Source: Acholoe squamosa
Taxonomy: Eukaryota > Annelida > Polychaeta > Phyllodocida > Polynoidae
Reading direction: 5' to 3'
DNA length: 64,000 nt
Assembly (NCBI GenBank): GCA_949317995.1
Contig: OX439041.1
Location: 15,531,501 to 15,595,500 of the forward strand
Shown: positions 5,953 through 55,803 of the stretch, in pieces
Position numbering within the stretch: position 1 is the stretch's first letter
How the letters are laid out: each line of letters starts with the position of its first letter
Program-made: the position numbers and the translations under genes
The notes under the pieces: generated by a model
The model's input: only the letters and a program-made list of their open reading frames with translations
The model's database searches: none
Told to the model about the DNA's origin: nothing

Positions 5953-8330
5953 TTTCCTTTATTTGCAATAAGTATTTCAATGATATTCAAGCACGTATTG
6001 TTAATAACACATGCAAATCTCAGGTGGCCACCATACACCTTTTCAGGTAGTCTCATAGGCAGCCTTAATAATTTTAATTCTTGCTTGCGTGCACTTAGCA
6101 AAGGAATTAACAGTTTTATATATATATTAAATAACAAATCACGTTTTATATTTCATGTTTCATGTTTCAGTATTGTTAAAAACACTGAGGTATGCAACAT
6201 AACCAATACTTTTCATAATAATATCAATTATATTTACCGTTGATATTAATCATGGGGGGAAAATGGGGGGGGGGAAGAAGCAACATTTTGAATGTTTTTT
6301 TGTTTACACAGTCGGCACCTTGTCAGACAACATTTTCTTAACTTTTGTCTTAAATATTTCTGGGTCAGGGATATTTCTTAATTCAGATGTTAGATCGTTC
6401 CATACTGTTGATGTCATATGGTACAGACTTGTTTTAACTGAAGTTAGTCTTGTCATAATGACTCTTAATCTTCTTCCATCCCATTGTCTTGTATACAATA
6501 ATCTTTGGTCTATATAAAATGGATTTTGTGATCTTTTGAATGCCATAGTTGTTGTAAAATACCATTGTCTATCTTTTAGGTAATTAACACCTATTAAAGC
6601 ATGTACAAGATGAGTGGATGTTTTATTATCCATTCTTAATATAATTTTTAGACACCTGTTTTGCATTCTTTGTAGTTTGTCATTCAATGTTTTAGATACT
6701 GCTTGATATAGCACACAACCATAGTCAAAAATTGTTAATAGAAAGGTTTTATATATCAAGGATAAAGTATCCTGGTCTAGGACATATGAGATTCTTCTTA
6801 ATTGATAACTTCTAAATTCGAGTGTTTGTATTTGATTTTTGATGAAAACATCATACTTTAGCTTGGAATCTAAGGTTACCCCTAGATATTTGTATGATGG
6901 TACCTGATGTATCTCTTGATTATTCAATTTTAATACAATTTTATTTTCCGTATTAGGAAAAAAGATCATATATTTTGTCTTGGCTACATTGACTGTTAAC
7001 CAATTTTCTTTACACCATTTTGCATATTTATCTAGGTCATTTTGCATTTGTACAGTAGAGGAAATCAAATCTGTTCCTGAGATATATATAACTGTATCAT
7101 CAGCAAATTGCCTAATTTTACAATGATCACAGCAAGATTCCACATTGTTGACATAAATTAAGAAGAACAATGGTCCCAAAACAGAACCTTGAGGGACTCC
7201 AAATGAAATTTTTTCTTCAGGTGAAGTGATATTATTTGCTATTGTCAATTGAAATCTGTCTTCAAGGTAATTTCGTAATAGTTCTATGGTTTTCCCAGTT
7301 ATCCCATAATATTTTAATTTGTCCAAGAGAACTGAGCGATTCACTCTATCAAATGCTTTCTTTAAGTCAATAAAAGTTGCCAAAGTGAATTTTCCTTCAT
7401 TTTTATTTAAATGTATAAAATTTGTAAGTTTTCCTATTGTTTCAATTGTAGATCTATTTTTCCTGTATCCTCCTTGTGCATCTGTCAATATTTTGTGTCT
7501 CTCAAGGTACTGTGATAGGTGATTATGAATAATATGTTCAAAAATCTTTCCAGGCAATGGTAATAATGATATTGGTCTATATTTGTTAACTGAGAATTTG
7601 TCCCCAGATTTAAAAATTGGAAGTACTTTAGCTACCTTCCATGCATTGGGGTACATTCCTGTAGTATATGAAACATTCAATAAGTAAGTAAACACATGGG
7701 TTATATGAAGAAGACCAGTTTTCAATACAACTGTTGATATTCCATCAATTGCTGACAATTTTCCAATGTCGACATTTTTTAGGTGCTTTGATACCATTTC
7801 ATTTTCTATAATAAGGTCTTCTATTTCTGTTAATTCTTGTCTTTGTATAGGTGGGGCCCATCTATTATCAAATTTGTTGCAAGTTCAGAGCCAATTTTAC
7901 TAAAGAATGAGTTTATGTAGTGAGCTGTTGCATCGTGTGATATATAATCTCCTTGATTATTTTTTAAAACAATACAAGGATTATTAGTTTCCTTCAGAGG
8001 AAAAGCTTTGTTTATATTGAACCAAAACTTTTTTGGATTTCCTTTGCTATTATTAACAGTATCCCGTACATATGAGTTTCTTGTATCATTGATCATGCTA
8101 TTAACCCTTTTCCTTGCTGTGTGAGCTCTACGTTTGTCAATGTCTCTACCCGTTCTTCTAGATATTCTTAGTAGTCTATCTTTATCCTTTATTTCCGAAA
8201 TAATTTCTCTCGATTTAATTTGGCAAGTCAACTTTTTTTTCTTATATTGAAACACAATTTTGTATTTCATTGTAATAAGGGCAATGATAAAGCAATCCAT
8301 TTGAAAAGACCCTTCTTTACTTCTATAAAT
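5953..8330 (-). mobile_element. 5'-truncated LINE adjoining the Ty3 pol remnant
   Basis: Covers the RT-bearing frames at 6304-8300 and a probable 3' UTR at 5953-6303. An AATAAA on the minus strand near 5960 and a T-run on the plus strand near 5942-5949 fit a LINE 3' end. No endonuclease domain is found upstream, so the copy is 5'-truncated, as is usual for LINEs. A G-run (6252-6275) lies in the 3' UTR. The Ty3 sequence does not resume beyond 8330, so the left junction is an insertion point or rearrangement that I cannot resolve. Confidence 0.7.
6304..8300 (-). pseudogene. LINE reverse transcriptase (CR1/Jockey-like group)
   Basis: Two frames, 8300-7830 and 7797-6304 (497 codons), separated by a frameshift near 7800-7830. 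The second carries RT motifs in order: NKYRPISLLP, FIDLKKAFDRVN, FGVPQGSVLGPLFFLIYVNN, the catalytic FADD (about 7095), a thumb region with NWLTVN, and KYLGVTLDS. A C-terminal QNRCLKIILR segment is typical of CR1/Jockey/L2-type LINEs. The first frame is the linker upstream of RT. RT would copy the element RNA at a nicked target. The RT frame itself is intact, but the missing endonuclease and the frameshift make it non-autonomous. The clade assignment is from motif style only. Confidence 0.85.
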
Positions 8331-8339
8331 TTAGCAAAC

Positions 8340-8462
8340 TCTGTCTCTCCTCATCCCTCTCTGTGTCTGTTTCTTTCTTTCTTTCTCTGTCTCTGCCTGT
8401 TTGTCTGTCTGTCTGTCTCTGTGTCTCTGTCTTTCTGTCTCTCTGTCTATCTCTCTCGCTAA
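8340..8462 (+). repeat. CT/CTGT-rich microsatellite
   Basis: Imperfect pyrimidine-rich tract of CTTT, CTGT and CTCT units on the plus strand. The open frame through it (runs of Leu, Ser, Cys and Val) is a by-product of the repeat. A very similar tract lies at 24390-24520. Confidence 0.85.
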
Positions 8463-8990
8463 TGTCCTTCACCCTCTGACACTCTGAGTCTCAGTCTCCA
8501 TTACTCCTTCTCGCTGCCAGTGTCCCTTGCCCCTTGTCCCTCTCTATTGTCTCAGGTACTTGCTCTTATAAACAACTCTGATCCCCACCTCCCATAATCT
8601 TCTGTATGTCTCTATCAGTGGTCACCTCCCTCTACTCCAGCCTCGTGCTGGCCATTTGACTCTGGCCAGACTCATATCTAGATGTGGTGACCACTTGGGG
8701 AGCCACCCTCACATTCTTCAGGATCCTGGAGAAACCACGACGACCCCAACTCTCTCCAAATGGCATAGGGACAGAGATTGAGCTTTATTTGCTGGCAGCA
8801 TGGGGGTGCTTTCAATTAAGGTGTACAGGTAGGTGATATGCACAGCATATTAGTTATATATATACATGACAGGTGCCATGGTTGGTTATTCCCATACACA
8901 GCACATATATAAAGACATCCTGAGAGGATAAGGCACTCTACTAGATCTACATTTTATAGACCTAGGACCCATGTATAACGATAGAAGGGC
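8463..8990. other. Non-coding stretch, no gene seen
   Basis: CT-rich at its left end, then ordinary unique-looking sequence. I see no frame with protein-like composition. Confidence 0.5.
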
Positions 8991-8996
8991 TGGGTG

Positions 8997-9143
8997 CAGT
9001 CGCGGATTTAGAGGGGGGTCATGGGGGCGCGTGCCCCCCCCTTTTCCCAGTACTTAAGAGTTTAACTACATATTTTGGACCCCAAAATTTGCCTACAATT
9101 GCGGGGTGCGCCCCCTCCTTTTCCAAATCCTGGCTCCGCCACT
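8997..9143. mobile_element. Short MITE-like element with 6-bp target duplication
   Basis: Begins CAGTCGCGGATTT and ends GGCTCCGCCACT, giving imperfect terminal inverted repeats around AGTSGCGGA. It is flanked by TGGGTG at 8991-8996 and again at 9144-9149, which reads as a target-site duplication. The interior has G- and C-runs and no coding capacity, as expected of a non-autonomous DNA transposon. Confidence 0.6.
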
Positions 9144-9342
9144 TGGGTGGAATGACAGGCCCATTACTACAAGTACTAGTATAGTACCATTTATTTTTTT
9201 TAGATAGAGCAGCGCTCATTTTTTATCTAAAAAATATGTCTATAGCTATACAGGCTACATTTTTTGATATTTTGTTACATAAACACCACAGGACACCACA
9301 GGACAATGCATACAGCATTATTATAGTGAGTATGACAATAGA

Positions 9343-9911
9343 TGTGTGACCCATCAAGCGATTTTTAATTCCCCATTTGGCCACCAGGGGGCATTGGACA
9401 GGCAAAATTACTGTAAAATCAATAAAAAATATATTAAGCTAATTTTTGATGCAGAGATGTAGAAATGACCCCTATTTGGAAGGTAAAATGAACATTTTTC
9501 ATGAGAAATCAGCCTATATGCCTGTTTCTGGTTGCCATGGCAACCATTCCAATAATCAAAATTTGCAGATTTTTATGCCAATTTTCAGGGAACCTCACCA
9601 AAGACCCAAATCTGAAAACAGAAATGCAAAATTCCTTCTAGATCAAAATCTATGACAAAAATCACCATATTGTTATGTATTTTTTATAAAAAAAAAAAGG
9701 CTGATTTATTGTGTTTTTAGATATTATTATGGTTTATAATGTATTTGCAGCTTAATCATCAATTTCAAATATGAATAACGACCTATGTTCAAGGTGGGGT
9801 TCTGACATAACTACTAGGAATATTTAAGCCAATGATGTCTCATTTTAAAGATCTTCAGATGAACTTTGATAATGAGTTTCCCTACAGATGAGTGTTTGCC
9901 TAGTCACATGT
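9343..9911 (+). repeat. Dispersed repeat R1, copy 1
   Basis: Strongly similar, in the same orientation, to 18991-19483. Shared landmarks run from GTGTGACCCATCAAG through a poly-A tract to CTAGTCACATGT or its equivalent. It contains the palindrome GGTTGCCATGGCAACC (9530-9545). There is no protein-like frame. It may be a non-autonomous transposon whose ends I cannot define. Confidence 0.8.
9530..9545. promoter_or_regulatory. Perfect RFX X-box palindrome
   Basis: GGTTGCCATGGCAACC is a perfect 16-bp palindrome containing the symmetric X-box that RFX factors bind. It lies inside repeat R1 and is conserved in the second copy at 19228-19243. Whether it is used is unknown. Confidence 0.5.
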
Positions 9912-10045
9912 ATTCTATATGACTAGTAATAGAGACTAGATACTGATATACCTCTACATCGATACAATTTTCGTAGCTCAGTTCCCCTATCTAGGAAGTA
10001 TGCTATGAGTGAGATACTAGGGTTCTTTCAGTGTATGCACAGCTG

Positions 10046-13000
10046 TTACATTAAGTCCAAAATAGCCTTCCATTTCCTAAACCTCTTTTGCATGTTCTCC
10101 AGACTGCATATAAATTGTTCTGAGAGAAGAGAGTGTTTAAACTCTCCTATCCATTGCAACAGATCAAGATAGCACCTGTGATACAAACGCTGCCTTTAAA
10201 TGTAAAACCTCGTTCTAAGCATTACATTGTTGATGATATCACCATTTAGAATTTTTCTACATAATCCAAGTATCAATTCATGCTCATCTAAATTCCCTGT
10301 ATCAATCTTAGCAACGGTGTGTATCCATTGTACGACTGACTTCCAGAAGTAGGTTACTGGGGGGCATTTCACAAGGAAGTAATCAAGAGTGTCAGTCTTA
10401 CCAGCACAATATACACAATCTGGGCTTTCCTTTGCACGTATATCAAACAAGTATTTGTTACAAGATAGTATTTTATGGAGTACCTTATATTGAAATGATT
10501 GTAACTTTGTTTCCCTACTTACTTGGCATGGACACATATATATGTCATACCAGGGAACCTTTGTAAATTGGACCTCAGGAAAGACTTTTGCCCATTTCAT
10601 TTCATTCCTTGGCATTTGTTGTGGGTGACGGTATAGAACTATCCAATACAATTCCTTGCTTGATGTCGAAAAGAGATTAACTACATCTGGGTGATTATCA
10701 ATGACCCAAATACAGTCATTTGGCATTTGAATTTCGTCACTGGATATGCTAGCTCTCCAGCTACCTGGTATACATTGTCGGATTTGTAGAGCCTGAAGAA
10801 AGTTACATTGAACACCATACCTTTGGTAAATTTGAGTGTCTGACATAAAACTTCCACTATCCAGTAAATCTTCAACCCTGACAATACCAGCTTCCCTCTA
10901 AGATTTCCAAATCATTGGTGTATTATTGATAGTAATAAACTTATTTTTCCACAATACTCCATTACGGACCTCCATTTTTCTTACTAGTGAAACATTTTGA
11001 AATTCATGCCAGTCCTTGAGAACCTGATAATAGAATGGGCTTGCTTCTCGTGGTATGTTAATATCTGAATTTGTATGAATGAACAGTTTTAAGTCAGACA
11101 CCTCATGGAGAAATAACTTAATAAAATCACATGGAACCATGGTAGTATCCCAATAGAATCTTTTGATCCAGTTTATGTTAGATACAATGATTTTCGTTTT
11201 AAAATTGCCTACTGCAAGTCCACCATGCTTAGTTTGTGCCTGAACACGTGCCCTGGCTACCTGGTTACTGTTGGAGCTCCATAGGAATCTGTCAACAATT
11301 CTATTGACTTCATCTATTGCTCTAGATGGTGTAGTGGTGACTGAGGCCGGGAACATCACACATGGTAGCATTAGACTGTTTATGATGATAGTTTTACCTT
11401 TGAGTGAGATGTTGCAGTGCCTCCAATCATCACATATATGCTGGTGATTTTCTGTATCTGGGGTTCAAAGTTCCACAAGTAATTTTGGGCTTCTGTCCTA
11501 TTTGGTGCTACAGAGATGCCTAGGACAGTCAATCTTTCGCTTCATGCAAGACCCTCCAATCCAGTCTGACTACTGTCAATACCACCAAGTGCAAGATATT
11601 CTGTCTTATATCTATTCACCTTCAGACCAGAGTACCTCCTAAGCCTTCTCAAACAGTCCAGCAGGTGATGTAGAGCTGCTGCTGACTCGATAAAACAAGT
11701 GGTATCATCAGCATATTGACATATCTTTACTTCTCTAGTACCAAGTCTTATACCTTTAATATCTACATTCATGCTACATTATGAGCTAACAGTTCTACAG
11801 CAATAAAAAACAAAAAAGGCGATAGACAGCATCCCTGTCTGGTTCCACATACAAGTTCAAACCAGTCACTTGTGTAGCCACAGGCAACAATGTCTTTATA
11901 TAGTGTGTGAGATGTATTTTTCCCAAAATCCAAACCTTTCAAGTGCCTTAAAAATGAACTCCCACCTTATCTTATCTAATGCTTTTTCAAAATCAACTGC
12001 CATCAGAATAAGAGGGGGACTTAACTTTGTGGTGTATGCTAATATATCTTCAACTGTGTGAATACTTGTTGCTATATACCTTGGCCTAAACAAATCCAGA
12101 TTGATCTGAGCTTATAATACTAGGGAGGTGGGGTTTTATCCTTTCTGCCAGGGCCTTGGTGTAGATCTTATAGTCTGTATTCAACAGGCTGATCGGCCTC
12201 CAGTTTCCTAGCTGGAGTCTATCTTTTTTCTTTTTAGGGATAACGGTTATAATGCCACGTTTCTGTTCTTGGCTCAAGCTGCCCATTTCCATGGCATAGA
12301 ATAGACTTTGACTAACATCATCCCCAATATCAGTCCAGAAGAACTTATAAAACTCTGCACTTAGCCCATCAGTGCCTTGGTACTTCCCATTCTTTAAGGA
12401 TTTTAAACTGTTGAGAAAATATGACCTTGATAAGGGTCTCTCTATCATCTCTCTCTGGTTGTCAGACAAGAGAGCAAAGTTGTTTGTATCTATGAAGGGA
12501 CAACTGTCATCAATATCATCTAACTCTCTATAGCTATCTGAGTATAGATTTCTGTAGAATTGCTTCTGTACGCTAAGGATATTTTTACATTCAGTGACTA
12601 TATGCCCATTTTGATCTTTCAGTTGATAATAAGTTTGTCCATAAAATTCTTTTTTTCTAAATTCAAAAAGTATTTGGTTGATCGTTCACCTACCTGGGAC
12701 CAATTCACTTTTGACCTAAACATGATGGCTCTAGCTGTCTTTAATTCAATATCTTTCAGGTCACTTTCCATTTCATCAATTACATCATGGCCCTCATCAA
12801 AGGCTGCAGTCAATTTGTCCAGACTGTTTGTTTACTCCCTTTCTACCTTTTTAGACTCTGCCTTCTTCTTTTAGCTGTAATTAATTGAAAATCTCATACT
12901 TCAGAATCTCCTACTTTGCATTGGGTGCCAGATCCTGGTATTCTATCTTACATTTTCCAAACATAGTCTTAAGTGATTCACATAGTCTTTATCTGAGAGA

Positions 13001-13785
13001 AGGGTCTTATTAAACTTCCACACATTTGGGCCTCTGTCCTGGTCAGCACTGGATATTCCCATTGTTACCTTACTGTGGTCAGATTGCGTTCCAGTACAGA
13101 TATCTGTTTTATGAACAAAGCCTGTCAAATGCTCAGACACTAGCCAGAAAACTATCCTGGATGCTTGCTCCTGCCTATGAAAAGAATATCTACGTAAATT
13201 AGGGTGTCTAACTCTCCATATATCCACTAAGCTGAGAGTATCTTGTAGACTGTATATTTGCTTCCTATACTGCTGATTAGCTGCCCTTATACTATTGGTT
13301 GCCTTTCTGTCTATATATGGGTCCCGTGTTTCATTAAAGTCACCTCCAAGGAGAAAGTTTTCGACTTTATTACCTTTTAATCTATCTGTTACTTCATCTA
13401 ATACAGCCATCGGGTCGGCTTTATAGTTTTGTGTTGGAGCATAAATATTGCATAAGATATAATCCACTCCCTGAACCTCGATGTGCAATATAATATACCT
13501 CCCATTGGCGTCCAGTGTCTTTTCTAGGCACTTGTAAGGGTAATTTCTATTAAAGAGTATGGCTACACCTTTAGATGATGAGCTGCCATTTGCACATACC
13601 ATATTACCACCCCTCTCAGCCTTCCAAATCTTTTCTACTTCTGCTGTGCAATGGGTTTCCTGAAGGAAGACAATATTATAACTTTCATCCTTTAGCTTCT
13701 TGAAAATAGCTCTTCGCTTATCTCTCACCCTTATGCCATTAACATTAAAAGAGCATAGGTTAATCACTCTTGTGTTATTGGCCAT
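10046..13785 (-). pseudogene. LINE ORF2: AP endonuclease plus reverse transcriptase
   Basis: ORF2 nicks the target DNA and reverse-transcribes the element RNA. The endonuclease (13785-12943) opens MANNTRVINLCSFNVNG and contains FLQETHC, GGDFNETRDP and TQSDHS. The usual Asp in the SRIDxW motif is Val here. The linker (12813-12619) has the typical KVNWSQVGERSTKYF. RT lies at 12469-11542 with WRPISLLNTDYKI, DQSGFV and catalytic YADD (near 11715). The C-terminal region (11371-10196) ends in a Cys motif (CVYCAGKTDTLDYFLVKCP). After a stop at 10196 the frame stays open to TAA at 10046-10048, which I take as the true end. Disruptions near 12900, 12540, 11890, 11540, 10890 and 10196 make it inactive. 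Confidence 0.9.
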
Positions 13786-14281
13786 AACCTTTTGGATTCA
13801 GAATAAGGGTCATATCATATGTGGTTTTACACAGAATTCGTGGGGTACCAGTAACTTTACTTTTTAAGTTCAGTTGTCTTACAATCATCCACAGCCACGC
13901 TGTGAGGGTACAATACTCATATATCATCATATAAGCCTTGCTAACATTCTGTTGGCACCTCATAGAAACAAAATACAATAACACAACTACCAAAATGATG
14001 TACATAATCTTGCACACACAAATAACAGATAAACATAAACACACAAGAAGAGAAAAGTAGAGCATCCACATTTAGTTGTTCCATAGACCATGCGTCTCAT
14101 GCAACTGAGAGAGCTGTTTGATTATATGTTCATTTTTGTTGGGTATTTTATTTAAGACTATTGTGATCCATCCCTAAGTTGAATGAATCTTGAGCACCAC
14201 ATGGTTATACCCAGTTGTTGTAGTCATTACCATCAATACACACATATACATATACATGTACACATTTTTGGGCTGAGTAAG
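13786..14281 (-). other. Spacer between LINE ORF1 and ORF2
   Basis: About 500 bp between the ORF1 stop and the ORF2 ATG on the minus strand. One frame of 98 codons (14071-13775) runs through it, but its hydrophobic, low-complexity composition is not convincing. I regard it as untranslated. Confidence 0.5.
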
Positions 14282-15837
14282 TTAGGCAGTATCCTCAAAT
14301 TCCTGGCGCACCTCTTGGAGAATTTTACCAAGCAGGTTTTTTCCAGACCATAGCTCCTGGTTTAAGGCATTCTTATCAGTCAGTCTCATTCCTATGCCCC
14401 ATACAGAGTCTTTTGAGGCTTCACCAATAACCTTATTTCCTGTGCTAAGGAGAGGCTGGCGAATGAGAGGATTTTGTTGGACCTTAGCCCTAATCCCTTC
14501 CATTGCAATGGACTTGGATTTAGCGATCCACTTGTCCTTGTACTCTTCCCTGCACTTGTGTAGTATGCCCTTTAGCTTGGCAGGCATGTGCAGCCGCCAT
14601 GCCTGTCTCTCTAAGTCTTCACGCCTTGCGATAATGCACCTTTGTATGGTGAGGTATTTCTCCATCGATGTGTAGGTCTTATCTCCAATCTTAAATGTAG
14701 CAGGGTAGTAGTTGCTAAAAGGGGAGGCCTTGGTGAAGAAAACTACAGTGTTCTCATTCTCTATTGTAACCAGAGCCTCTGGTCCCAAATATTCAGGAAG
14801 AGTGTCCCAGTTTTCTTTGTTTTAGAGCTTGCCATCGAGGTACATGGATGTGCCCAACATTCTCACCTCTCTGTAAGTGCCATGGTTCTTGGCCACCCAA
14901 TATGTCTTTTTAAATTTAGCTAGTTCCCCCTTCAGTTTGATGGGGATATCCTCACTGAGCCAGAGTCGGGCACCGTTTACTTTGTAGTCGCTAAACTGTG
15001 CTCTTCACCCCCACAATTTATTTCTTGCATCCATGAATTTCAGCCTTATTAGTACAGGCCTTGAAGCCTGTCCAGGGTTCCTCGTAATGCGATGGGCCAC
15101 ATCAATGCAGCTACTCTCCATTTTTGCATGGCGCCAAAAGATTCTTCCCAACTCTGCCCTCAAACTTTCAGATGTTTCGTTTTCACCCTCTGGGAGGCCA
15201 TCCAGCAGTATGTTCAATTTTCTTGAGTACGCTTCCTGTTTGATGTTGTTGTCCTCATTTCTCTCGAGGTGAGCCTTATTTCCTTTAACCTATATCTCAG
15301 TTTCCTCCAGCTTGGTTTTCGTCTCTGATAGTTGGTTCTTTGTTTACGTTAGATCCATCTGGAGCTTAGCGACTTGCTCCTTCATGACCTGGATGTCACC
15401 TTTGTTGATTTCTACATCCTCCGCCACACCTGAAAGGTTATCGATGAATTCCTTGATGTCATTTGCAGTAGTTTGACCAGTGTTGTCAACTCTGATAAGC
15501 CGTTCCTCGATCCTGGCTAAAGTTCTAGCTAGCGTGAGTAAACTCAGCTCCTAAGGGTTGATGTTCTGGGTTAATGCAGGTTTACTAGCAGTACCAGCTA
15601 CCCTGCTGTTAGACTGGTGTTGGTGGGCTTCTTCGGTGACCCTCAGTTTTCTATCGGTATCATCATCAGACAGTCCTGCTTCGTCAGGCATTTTTTTTTC
15701 GCTGCTTTGTCAGTGTTTTTACAGTCTATAGGGGCCTCCCCTTCCCCAGATGAGTTCCTCCCCTTTGTGACCAGTGGTGCACCCGTTGGAATGGATACAG
15801 CACCCCCACATTGATCACAGACACTTGATGTTGACAT
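14282..15837 (-). pseudogene. LINE ORF1 with coiled coil, RRM-like domain and NADAR domain
   Basis: I start at the ATG at 15837 (MSTSSVCDQCGG, with a CxxC pair). Domains in order: a polar N-terminus with a frameshift near 15665; a heptad-like coiled coil at about 15540-15240 with three stops; an L1 ORF1-type RRM at 15217-15005 (ILLDGLPEGENETSESL, CIDVAHRITRN, RPVLIRLKFMD); a C-terminal domain at about 14990-14825 (ARLWLSEDIPIKLKGELAKF); then, after one in-frame TAA (about 14823), a domain running to 14282 that I recognise as NADAR/YbiA-like. L1 ORF1 proteins bind element RNA as trimers. A NADAR domain at the end is not part of the usual L1 ORF1. The NADAR part itself is uninterrupted. Confidence 0.8.
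14285..14788 (-). other. NADAR (YbiA-like) domain at the C-terminus of LINE ORF1
   Basis: About 168 residues with the family's signature blocks in order: FFTKASPFSNYYPATF, YTSMEKYLTIQRC, IRAKVQQNPLIRQPLLSTG, IGEASKDSVWGIGMRL, and a final W-x-GKNLLGKILQEVRQEF. These match the F-SNFYP, E-KY/F, WGIG and G-N-LG blocks of NADAR/YbiA/DUF1768 proteins. Characterised members hydrolyse N-glycosidic bonds of riboflavin-pathway intermediates (YbiA) or remove ADP-ribose from guanine bases. The domain is continuous with the ORF1 frame, 3' of the ORF1 C-terminal domain, with one stop between them. Catalysis by this copy is inferred, not shown. Confidence 0.8.
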
Positions 15838-17357
15838 ATTAAAACCTGGGCGAAGTCTAAAGATGCACAAGGTCTACCCCCTACCAACTGACAAAATCTT
15901 GACAAGTGTTGGGTATTTTAGTCACAATAGGGCTGGGGAGGGACAGCTAATAGGAAATTGACCTGTGCCGTAGTTCACTGGGTTATATGCTCATATTTCA
16001 TATATGGTTAAGTTGATGATACAGCACCGACAATTGAGAACACATGGACATGGATCTATGTATAGCCATTACATGTTACATAGAGCCTGCCTCCATACCT
16101 TTGGGTGCATCCAGTTAGACATTCAATATGGACCAGTTAGAACCATCCAATTTGAAAGATTCTTTTTGATCTAGAATCCTTGGGGCGTCTACTTTCTGGC
16201 AAACTTTGAATCGTCACGATCTGACTGTCTGCCTGACAGTTTTGTTGCCGAACACGTAGAGAGGTTCCAATCCCTGTGCATCAGACACACTAATTATCAA
16301 GTGCATTGAATCAGGCTTGATCTCATGATTCTAAATATATATAGTTTATGGGGATTTCTCACAGTGTAGTTGCTTAAAGAATAGTTGTTTACTTTAAAGT
16401 TGTAGAGTGACTGTTGCTAACTGTAGTAGTAGTGTCTCGAACACACCCATCACACTCAAGTCAAATACCACAGCAAGGCTCTATGATATCTCGACTACCA
16501 ACTGCCTGTTTAGCAGCATTTATATCTGCCTAGGCATGTCACTCCTAAAATGTGTTGTACAGCTTAAAATTGTCATAGAGAGGCCCAACAAACGCCAAAA
16601 TGATCGTGAAAGTCTACCGAGTGCAGCTACGCTTATGCCGTGTTGTTATTGTTTATATAAGGCGAACGGGAAGACGGTTTTCATCATGCACTTCCTGTTG
16701 CTACTTGCTTCAATTATCACTCAGTTCTGTCCATGTGCGACCTAAATGTGGTTTGTCTCTGTGTAATTTACTGAAGAATTTGGGAGGAACTTCACATTAT
16801 ATACAGGATCCTTGGTACTTGTCTGTTTGTTCAGCAAAGTTTGTGCTCCCTAATAGGGCTATAAAATGCCGAAAATCAGTTGTCTGCTGGGAGTGATGTT
16901 GCTGGACACTTCTCTGGCTGGGTGCGTTCGAGACAAAAATCTACATGCTCTATTTTATTTGAATGTGGGTATTGGATGTTGGACTGATAAACTAGCCTTT
17001 CTGTGGTACAACGGTTCTGATGTACTTATACAAACCAGTGGTTTCTTTCAAACTGGAGGGGAGGAGTTGGGCAAGGATAGGTGAGTTGAGGGGGAGGCGA
17101 CTGACGTAGACTCTGTCAGCACTTGCAACCTATTGTGCCTTATCAGAACACTTTTACTAACATTTTTTTTCGGAATTCAGAGTTATAGACTGTGATTTCT
17201 ATATACCTGGGTATTACTTACTAAATATTAAGAAAATTATGATGATTTCTGAATTTTCAGACATCATCTTAATAGTGACATTACTGAACTTAAGTCAGGT
17301 TTGAGTGTACCATTTGAGTGAGGAGATTTTTTTTCCAAATTTCATTAACCCTTTAAA
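15838..17357. other. Non-coding stretch, possibly LINE 5' UTR at its left
   Basis: The first few hundred bases may be the 5' UTR or promoter of the LINE to the left; no boundary repeat is visible. The rest has several short frames with no domain-like composition, so no gene is called. Confidence 0.4.
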
Positions 17358-18990: not shown

Positions 18991-19483
18991 GTGTGACCCA
19001 TCAAGGGAGAACACCCCTCCGCGGGGGATTTTTAATTCCCCATTTGGCCACCAAGGGGCACCTGAGGGCAAAATTACTCTAAAATTATTATAAAAATACA
19101 TTCAGCTAATTGTTGATGCAGAATTCAATGGTATCTTTAAAAATGCACCATTTTCAGTAGAAATGGCCTACATTTGGATAGTAAAATGAACATTTTTCAT
19201 GAGAAATCAACCTCTATGCCTGTTTCTGGTTGCCATGGCAACCATTCCATCTTTTGAGGTCTCACAAAAAAAAAAACTGAAAACAGACATTATTATGGTT
19301 TATAATGTATTTAGAGCTTAATCATCGATTTCAGATATGATTAATGACCTACGTTCAAAGAGGAGTTCTGACATAACTACTGGGAATATTTAACCCAATG
19401 ATGTCTCATTTTAAAGATCTTGAGATGAACTTTGATAATAAATTTCCCTGCAGAGGGGTGATTTTGCTTGCCTGGTCACATGT
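18991..19483 (+). repeat. Dispersed repeat R1, copy 2
   Basis: Same orientation and content as 9343-9911 but shorter, missing a segment after the X-box palindrome (19228-19243). It has an extra CCCCTCCGCGGGGG palindrome near its start (about 19014-19027) that copy 1 lacks. Confidence 0.8.
19228..19243. promoter_or_regulatory. Perfect RFX X-box palindrome in R1 copy 2
   Basis: GGTTGCCATGGCAACC again, identical to 9530-9545, about 700 bp downstream of the GPCR stop codon. An RFX-type site by sequence; function not shown. Confidence 0.5.
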
Positions 19484-19484
19484 T

Positions 19485-19495
19485 TTTATTTTATT
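19485..19495 (-). terminator. Candidate poly(A) signal for the GPCR gene
   Basis: Two overlapping AATAAA hexamers on the minus strand, about 450 bp beyond the GPCR stop codon, at the edge of repeat R1. A plausible 3' end, but such hexamers are common in AT-rich DNA. Confidence 0.3.
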
Positions 19496-51799: not shown

Positions 51800-51870
51800 T
51801 GGAAACACCAGGATTTGAAGCCAGGTCTCTCAACTTGCTAATGAGCGCTCTACTACTGAGCTACATCCCT
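51800..51870 (-). pseudogene. tRNA-Ala-like relic
   Basis: The minus strand reads as a tRNA: acceptor AGGGATG with a G-U rich partner TGTTTCC, a canonical A box (TAGCTCAGTAGTAGAGC), an anticodon stem CTCA/TGAG, and a B-box-like CTTCAAATCC. Overall it resembles tRNA-Ala, but AGC is shifted by one base in the anticodon loop, the U33 position is lost, and the T-arm is distorted. A functional tRNA is unlikely; it is a pseudogene or the head of a tRNA-derived SINE. The plus-strand frame across it is incidental. Confidence 0.6.
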
Positions 51871-53945: not shown

Positions 53946-55803
53946 CGAGTCCGTAAATGATGAATAAGGATGAATACAGACGAATCAGGAATCCAGTTTG
54001 ATATCCACTTTATTCATTGAAGTCCACGAGGTATAGTTGGTGATACAGTATAAAGGTGCCCAACAGTGTCCAAGCCTAGCCCTTGAGCCAAGGGCCTTGG
54101 TCTCGCGTGAGTGTGTGAGGTATGAAGTATGGAGGTGGAAAGATGAGTGAGCTGCTCCCTCCACAGGTATTTGTAGTAGGAGCTGCTCACCCAGCTCATC
54201 CTAAAAATAGTATCAGGTGAGCTAAATATAGTAACTGGGGAACTCCAGTGCAGGTATGTAGGGGGAATCCCAAACATAGCACTGGGGTTCACAGAGTTCA
54301 GTGTGGTTCTAAATATAGCTGCTGGGAACTCCTGGTATGCTGTGAGCTGCTCATGATCAATGGGCATGTCCTCCAGCAGGAGGAGTTGTTTCTAAACATT
54401 GTCTGCTAGGAATTTCCAGCATGCAGTGGGCTGCTTGTGATTGACGGCATATCCTCCAGTGGGAGGAGGCGGGGTCACTGAGTGCAGTTGACACCGCCAG
54501 CCTTTGGTCTATGGGTATGGCTTGGCTTGTGGGTAGACTCGGACACTGGGTTACATGGTAGAGTCAAAGGTGAAAAATAAATATGATAAGTACAATACCT
54601 ATAACGGTCTACTGACAAATCCCCACATTCCTACTCGATTCCACGCGAGGTTTTTAAGGAGGAAGTTCGTGAGAAAAGGTCTACTGACAATATGTTTGAT
54701 GTGTAATAATAGGTATTACATCTTATCATTTAAGTTGAAGGTTTACAGTATTAAGGAGATATTTAATATTGGTTTTTGATTGAACATGAATAATTTATAA
54801 ACAGTACAAAACGAAACTGTGCCAAAGAGGTGTTGTTTGTAATTTTGACAATAAGAATATGAAAAATTCAGGTCGTGGTAGGATACAAGGGCTGGATTAT
54901 TTATCTAGTACTAAAGTTCACACAAGGATAGAGGAATAAAAACTATCCTAAAACATGCAGTTATTGGCTTTAGGGCAGACCTTGAGGTAGACACGTTAAT
55001 ACTGAAGTTTGTTTCAGTACCGGTAGGCACTTATTATTTAGGTCTTGAGCCAATATACAATACAATATAATAAATAAAAACAGAGGTAAGGTAATTGATG
55101 ACTGGCAAGTCGATCAATCATTTTTTATAATACTGGTAAGGCTTAGGGAGTCTGAAGGCTTTTAGGTGATATGTTTAAGGAATTTTCTAAAAAGAATTTT
55201 TGGATTTTTGGTCTTTTATTTATCTGTAGAAGTTTCTGTTAATTTTGTAGAAGGTTTGTCTTAGTCAATGGAAAATTTAGCATGTTTAGCCTTCAGTCTA
55301 CCTGGGGTTATCATTTGCTGAAAAAGGACGAGGTTAATACAAAAGTAAATGGAGGCTCTGGCTGATATTTAGTTTGGATCTCAATTGATCCTGCAAAGAT
55401 ACTGGTTGCCAGGGCTTCCTTGTAAAAAATTTTAGAAAAATATAAACTAGCTAAAACCCATAAATATTTGACATGGTTGGGTTTGAAAAGGTACAGTGTG
55501 AAAAAGAAAAAGAACTTAATGGCATCTTAAGATCACAAAAACCTGCTGCCTGGCTTGTGTTCTTCATAATGTTCTTATAAAGGAAAATAAATGTAAAAAT
55601 GCAGCGTGTTTTCATGGTTATGTATCATAGCCCTATACAAACAAGAAAAACTGGCTTTAAAAATCAGTTGACTAGGCTGACTGAGTCAGTGTTCATAGTG
55701 TCCATGGGCGGTCGGTGAGTGAAGTGTGTCTCTACACTTTTAGTCCATAATTTTAAAGACAGTTCCAAAAATAAATAAAATAAATAAAGGATGGTTATTG
55801 AAA
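53946..55803. other. Non-coding, AT-rich flank of the env-bearing element
   Basis: 54100-54480 has diverged repeats of a GCTGCTCATGA / TCCTCCAGCAGGAGGAG type. 54580-55800 is AT-rich with a repeated GGTCTACTGACAA. No coding frame I trust. The 3' end of the retroelement may lie here or nearer 57.8 kb; I cannot decide. Confidence 0.4.

Follow-up and report, generated by a model that had tools for sequence, protein, structure and literature searches.

The minus strand of the 64,000-nucleotide stretch of Acholoe squamosa DNA analyzed here (hereafter the window; contig OX439041.1, positions 15,531,501 to 15,595,500) raises the question of whether a LINE retrotransposon carries a NADAR enzyme domain within its ORF1 protein, and of what such a domain would do for the element.

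A decayed LINE with a NADAR domain in ORF1

The limits of the element were determined by blastn against two fetched copies, L014 and L018 (L labels denote loci of this 1.48 Gb genome, P labels proteins that are outside this genome or in the NADAR tree). A whole LINE copy was delimited on the minus strand at 9190..16931, with its 5′ end at 16931 and an A-rich 3′ end near 9190. The identity is 94.7% over 6570 bp to L018 and 94.5% over 6244 bp to L014, i.e., a divergence of about 5% from these full-length relatives, and the 3′ terminus of L014 aligns with window 9190-9347. All on the minus strand, the copy comprises the outer part of the 5′ UTR (16229..16931, from blastn), a broken ORF1 (14282..15837, from its translation and open 518-aa relatives), the start of ORF2 with an apurinic-type endonuclease (12943..13785; PF03372, E = 3e-10), a reverse transcriptase (RT) fragment of ORF2 (12086..12469; PF00078, E = 5.1e-9), and two C-terminal ORF2 pieces recognized as open frames (10196..11371, i.e., 10898-11371 and 10196-10846), which fall within the stretch aligning at about 94-95% to L014/L018. 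A gap in the L014 alignment reveals a foreign dispersed repeat of about 0.56 kb in the 3′ part of the LINE (about 9348-9907, strand not assigned), also seen, at 9360-9914, as direct repeats D2, D3, D9, D11, D12, and D20; a second copy lies at about 19027-19486, and the copies are 86-97% alike in pieces.

The ORF1 of this copy is damaged. Its start ATG (15835-15837) is in a different frame from the rest, the frame changing near 15680-15695, and five stops follow between 15679 and 14285. TAG 15551-15553, TAA 15344-15346, and TAG 15290-15292 are the most upstream; TGA 15005-15007 lies within the RRM part, and TAA 14822-14824 separates the CTD from the NADAR domain. An earlier note on this DNA had described a single TAA between the domains over 14285..15217: this TAA is present, but it is not the sole lesion, since the TGA also falls within that interval. 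Because of the five stops and the start in another frame, the ORF1 of the window copy is dead. Taken as a whole, the element is a degenerate L1-group LINE, probably of the Tx1 type.

Within the broken ORF1, the NADAR domain (14297..14731, minus strand) is recognized by the PF08719 profile with E = 2.7e-27 and 96.5 bits against a curated cut-off of 35.1, over positions 9-162 of 163, as the earlier note had claimed without such a search. The NADAR-bearing part of ORF1 corresponds to 14282-14788(-), and the domain matches the solved NADAR structure 8bau (E = 2.3e-9) and YbiA (2b3w, E = 2.2e-6). An RRM and a CTD precede it in frame: the L1-type RRM at 14939..15223 (minus strand, approximate limits transferred from L018 residues 206-300) and the CTD with its linker to NADAR at 14744..14938 (minus strand, approximate limits from a profile of four fused ORF1s). 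Single-sequence Pfam scans gave no RRM or Transposase_22 match in the fused ORF1, and a single-sequence PDB search with the window RRM gave none either; the RRM was later found with a profile. This profile, built from the fused ORF1s of P0004, P0005, P0006, and the window, matches human L1 ORF1p (2yko, E = 1.5e-7, profile positions 108-264; 2ykp, 1.4e-7) and mouse 2ldy (3.7e-4), as well as NADAR 8bau (1.3e-25). The RRM and CTD that the earlier note had read by eye are thus borne out, and by this profile match they are shared with L1 ORF1p. To our knowledge, human L1 ORF1p is devoid of NADAR. A coiled coil in front of the RRM-CTD is probable, the coiled-coil models at the ORF1 N-terminus scoring below the cut-off (PF15905, E = 0.00041 for the window and 0.00017 for L018); type II ORF1 proteins are described as coiled coil-RRM-CTD (PMC4120745). 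As judged from these profile matches, ORF1 encodes a predicted RNA chaperone of the RRM-CTD kind that ends in a predicted YbiA-type NADAR enzyme domain.

Other features were observed in the window. Another LINE RT ORF is located at 6304-7797(-) (RVT_1, E = 2.5e-35); it shares 40% identity across 349 aligned columns with the RT of the NADAR-bearing LINE L023. The stretch 54142-54617 is 94% identical to a flank of the L018 element. The stretch 51800-51870(-) is tRNA-like (Rfam RF00005, 31.4 bits), ARAGORN making no call there, and is perhaps a tRNA-derived SINE.

Occurrence of the fusion within the family

A PF08719 search of the genome yielded 3224 candidates, of which the best 150 were scored; all exceeded the cut-off and seven contained an internal stop. 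Uninterrupted 518-aa ORF1s ending in NADAR were found in 22 of the 23 family copies examined, 20 of which had been chosen for long open frames; the twenty-third, L007, is a partial frame and was dropped. The 22 copies have a mean pairwise DNA identity of 98.2%. A further member outside this count, L050, has a shorter open stretch of 441 residues. Outside this genome, P0004 (488 aa) is 48% identical over 98% of the query, and the more distant P0005, P0006, and P0013 are ORF1-like proteins with NADAR toward the C-terminus (NADAR E = 3.5e-24 in P0013). The intact fused copies that the earlier note had proposed to look for therefore exist, both here and elsewhere.

In order to avoid a choice of copies based on NADAR itself, the RRM-CTD DNA was used as query, and scores were obtained for 40 of its 107 candidates, one of which is the window. 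All 40 carry NADAR whole or in part. Indeed, 33 of them, the window among them, adjoin a NADAR match of the genome list, and the other seven, once fetched, revealed NADAR sequence directly downstream. In most of these seven the NADAR sequence is disrupted by stops, deletions, or frameshifts; the L070 alignment ends within NADAR, and L069 is missing a piece. As for the rest of the element, ORF1 is open in both L014 and L018 and ORF2 is in two open pieces in each, so no wholly intact element of the family was seen among these full-length members.

At L014, the outer 5′ UTR is present as a tandem pair of units (739-2055), each measuring about 0.6-0.7 kb, and a second, 5′-shortened copy (8439-9901) begins immediately at the 3′ terminus of the first in a head-to-tail arrangement, which suggests site preference or tandem insertion.

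NADAR domains in other LINE types

Twenty loci were fetched from the NADAR list, picked for variety. Two (L009 and L010) are host-type NADAR genes, and the other 18 show an open-frame NADAR with an RT-type frame downstream of it on the same strand. The RT was named by motif in all 18 and confirmed by Pfam in the five tested (L014, L016, L023, L024, and L026). In L013, L017, L024, L026, L027, and L028, about 60-220 residues follow NADAR, which is therefore not the end of ORF1 there.

Counting the window type, at least three far-apart RT types occur in LINEs that bear NADAR in ORF1. The 806-aa ORF2 piece of L014 matches L1 ORF2p (8sxt, E = 2e-63) ahead of R2 (9e-19) among the PDB structures compared, which places the RT of the window family with L1 on sequence similarity. 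The L016-type RT, whose group may by its motifs be CR1/L2-like, matches R2 (8.7e-12) and L1 (2.1e-7); it is 26% identical to the RT of the window family over only 215 aa and 30% identical to the L024 RT over 834 aa. The L020-type RT is unlike that of the window family and that of L016: it is 25% identical to one of them over 296 aa and 26% identical to the other over 336 aa, and it matches L1 ORF2p (1.9e-26) and R2 (2.9e-19). Branches in the RT tree reach 7-8 changes per column, so that it is reliable for the statement "far apart" only.

The same RRM-CTD lies upstream of NADAR in five of the seven NADAR-LINE groups. An hhalign comparison of the stretch preceding NADAR linked the window family to P0005/P0006 (E = 5.7e-20) as well as to groups A-D and F (E between 3.9e-10 and 3.2e-8). 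Group E matched the window family weakly (E = 0.0064, probability 6%) and was joined to A, B, and F; group G (L013, L020, and L053) gave no pre-NADAR homology to the window family by hhalign (E = 0.27 for L013). These alignments favor a single fusion common to the joined groups, and for group G a separate context. Exchange of ORF1 between LINE lineages is known (PMC4120745), and recombination is therefore a ready explanation for the sharing of NADAR among LINE types.

Extra ORFs were noticed in several of these loci. One in L024 (4556-5224) has a weak PF21641 match below the cut-off (19.9 vs. 27 bits, E = 0.00097), and a 222-aa ORF with the same ends occurs in L025 (4617-5285). PF21641 is, we presume, an ADP-ribosyltransferase family, and the match is likely due to chance. 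Others, of 211-262 aa and located between the NADAR-bearing ORF1 and ORF2, are found in L011 (4382-5170 and 5289-6020), L012 (4673-5308(-)), L015 (4259-5008), L022 (4840-5613(-)), and L028 (4574-5314(-)). GDSL lipase matches, weak and below the cut-off, were obtained for L015 (E = 0.00096) and L012 (E = 0.047), and no match for the four others tested (both in L011, L022, and L028). The ORFs lying between ORF1 and ORF2 may be esterase modules similar to the ones described for CR1-type ORF1 (PMC3905857).

Origin of the NADAR domain

In the NADAR tree, the window family forms one supported set with P0001, P0002, P0003, and P0005 (96/94), and 14 rows of other LINE domains form a second set (99/97). 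The tree is unrooted and nine of its 47 inner branches are drawn open, hence one capture and several captures are not told apart by it. A scan of viral contigs with the window NADAR returned six pattern stretches and no relatives.

One alternative to a fusion is that NADAR landed next to ORF1 by chance insertion, or that a host NADAR gene was captured there on a single occasion. The state of the window copy itself, broken and with a stop between CTD and NADAR, would fit such an accident; the presence of all or part of NADAR in each of the 40 scored copies found with RRM-CTD DNA, the open fused ORFs of this genome, and the homologues from outside it argue against such an accident and uphold the reading of the earlier note that the fusion is more than a chance neighborhood. 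Capture from the present host NADAR genes was likewise rejected. L009 (C17) and L010 (C14), which rank first and second in the genome-wide NADAR search (183.8 and 169.3 bits), group in this unrooted tree with P0007-P0012 (98/93), two of which bear bacterial names, and apart from the LINE NADARs. An accident of this kind is thus almost certainly not the explanation.

Catalytic residues and selection

The catalytic positions E43, K50, and E125 (Phytophthora NADAR numbering) were mapped from alignments onto 38 fetched non-host domains, a best-scoring set that includes near-identical copies and whose LINE location is shown for part of them. The equivalents of E43 and E125 are glutamate in 38/38 and 38/38, and the K50 equivalent is lysine in 33 and arginine in five. 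The window NADAR reads E, R, E, and P0004 also has the arginine. In E. coli C7 NADAR, the corresponding change K95R retained guanine-ADPr hydrolysis in vitro and lost DarT1 rescue, according to the parts of PMC11543638 available to us. The same source gives glutamate at the E125 position for the YbiA subfamily (aspartate in BC4488, histidine in phage types), and this subfamily glutamate is present in the window NADAR. The phosphate contacts are less conserved, with the D130 equivalent kept in 29/38 and tryptophan at the W133 equivalent in only 21/38; therefore, the ligand may differ.

Pooled dN/dS over the 22 copies was 0.433 for the N-terminus with the probable coiled coil, 0.288 for the RRM, 0.095 for the CTD, and 0.161 for NADAR. 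For the 17 copies present in both the NADAR and the RRM lists, the respective values were 0.418, 0.265, 0.050, and 0.145, with a bootstrap 5-95% range of 0.08-0.25 for NADAR (n = 17). Nine between-subfamily pairs show 59-88% identity in NADAR, with dS saturated in all nine, so that dN/dS is not computable between subfamilies; in eight of the nine pairs NADAR is more conserved than the preceding 150 residues, and in the ninth the two are equally conserved. Purifying selection thus acts on NADAR. The copies used for dN/dS and residue counts came from the best 150 of the 3224 candidates, mostly with long open frames, and conserved domains are therefore favored in the counts. Catalytic conservation together with selection indicates that the domain was kept for a long time for its activity or at least for its ligand site.

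Relation to known systems

The earlier note knew of no description of such a fusion. One exists, since a paragraph in PMC12477816 (2025) reports that the ORF1 of several Crassostrea gigas Tx1 LINE families appears to contain a YbiA-family NADAR; the fusion as such is therefore not new. Like the window element, these combine NADAR with an L1-group ORF1, and they are very probably the same kind of element. The Crassostrea gigas account, in the part that we consulted, gives no domain order, selection, or catalytic analysis. What the present analysis adds to that part is the fusion with other RT types, which differs from the Crassostrea gigas Tx1 case, together with the results on the shared junction, on the conserved catalytic residues, and on selection. 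According to the same source, Ectocarpus Gypsy LTR elements carry NADAR in Pol, a capture by a retroelement comparable to that of the window LINE. L1-Tx1 LINEs are widespread in molluscs (PMC10294476), and NADAR/YbiA is unmentioned in the portion of that article at hand. Among the matches listed in a search of the open-access literature, to which subscription journals and preprints do not belong, there was no second paper on NADAR in LINEs.

Outside retrotransposons, DarT-NADAR and Phytophthora NADAR share with the window NADAR the domain and the catalytic E/K(R)/E (PMC11543638, as far as seen), the K position of DarT-NADAR being R in the window family. Animal (invertebrate) RNA virus polyproteins also carry NADAR, for which removal of host ADP-ribosylation is proposed in the text seen of PMC9503650. 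These too are selfish RNA-replicating elements with NADAR, but viruses rather than a LINE.

Putative function and alternative explanations

The most likely reading, held at slightly less than even confidence, is that ORF1p places NADAR where it would remove guanine-linked ADP-ribose from element RNA or cDNA. It extrapolates from what NADAR enzymes do biochemically and from the RNA-binding domain fused to this one. ORF1p would coat the RNA of the element, and perhaps the nascent cDNA, and thereby bring the hydrolase to it; on this nucleic acid, NADAR would split the N-glycosidic bond between guanine and ADP-ribose, or that of a comparable base adduct. Such an adduct would stop reverse transcription or serve as a mark on the element, and may be made by a host ADP-ribosyltransferase directed against it or arise as damage. 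A putative counter-defense role goes one step further than ADP-ribose removal. Speaking against this reading, a six-frame search of this genome for DarT (PF14487) gave no match, with one candidate scored; an intron-split gene could escape this search, its control was positive in one of 14 genomes, and pierisin/CARP-1-like guanine transferases lie outside its scope. In what was seen of PMC11543638, a Phytophthora NADAR devoid of a DarT partner hydrolyzes guanine-ADPr. The available part of a paper on ZAP and L1 (PMC4441479) gave no direct support for ADP-ribosylation in L1 restriction and describes the PARP domain of ZAP as likely inactive.

A rather unlikely alternative is that NADAR is an active N-glycosidase on small molecules or RNA-processing by-products rather than on guanine ADP-ribose, acting on NAD-derived metabolites, damaged nucleotides, or RNA ends and aiding RNP assembly or RNA processing. 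YbiA does act on riboflavin intermediates (PMC11543638), the nematode NADAR protein SNA-3 takes part in spliced-leader trans-splicing with RNA-processing partners (PMC9303266), and a role in the processing of RNA intermediates is proposed for NADAR in retroelements (PMC12477816), each according to the sections accessible; the lower conservation of the ADPr contacts points the same way. This has to be set against guanine-ADPr hydrolysis being common to phylogenetically distant NADARs (PMC11543638, same sections) and against the position of the domain on an RNA-binding chaperone, which would suggest a polymer substrate. The partly changed ADPr contacts would also suit a mere binding module, which would read ADP-ribosylated RNA or protein, or NAD-capped RNA, and so tether the element RNP, catalysis being dispensable; ORF1 is reported to gain varied modules, e.g., PHD domains (PMC4120745, as consulted). 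We regard this as very unlikely, the two catalytic glutamates being kept in all of the domains compared.

Returning to the removal of ADP-ribose from element nucleic acid, a bolder proposal, unlikely as it stands, is that several far-apart LINE types of one animal lineage (L1/Tx1, a second and broad group, and a third type whose ORF1 is different) took up and retained one ADP-ribose hydrolase because the host base-ADP-ribosylates retroelement RNA or cDNA, which would amount to an undescribed animal anti-transposon defense with a transposon-borne antidote. If NADAR acts on the nucleic acid of the element, animal cells would ADP-ribosylate retrotransposon RNA or DNA, of which we met no description in the literature consulted. 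With many open ORF1 copies and a small domain, the putative hydrolase is directly testable. The fusion also reveals ORF1 as a site at which LINEs with very different RTs have in common an enzyme resembling a counter-defense.
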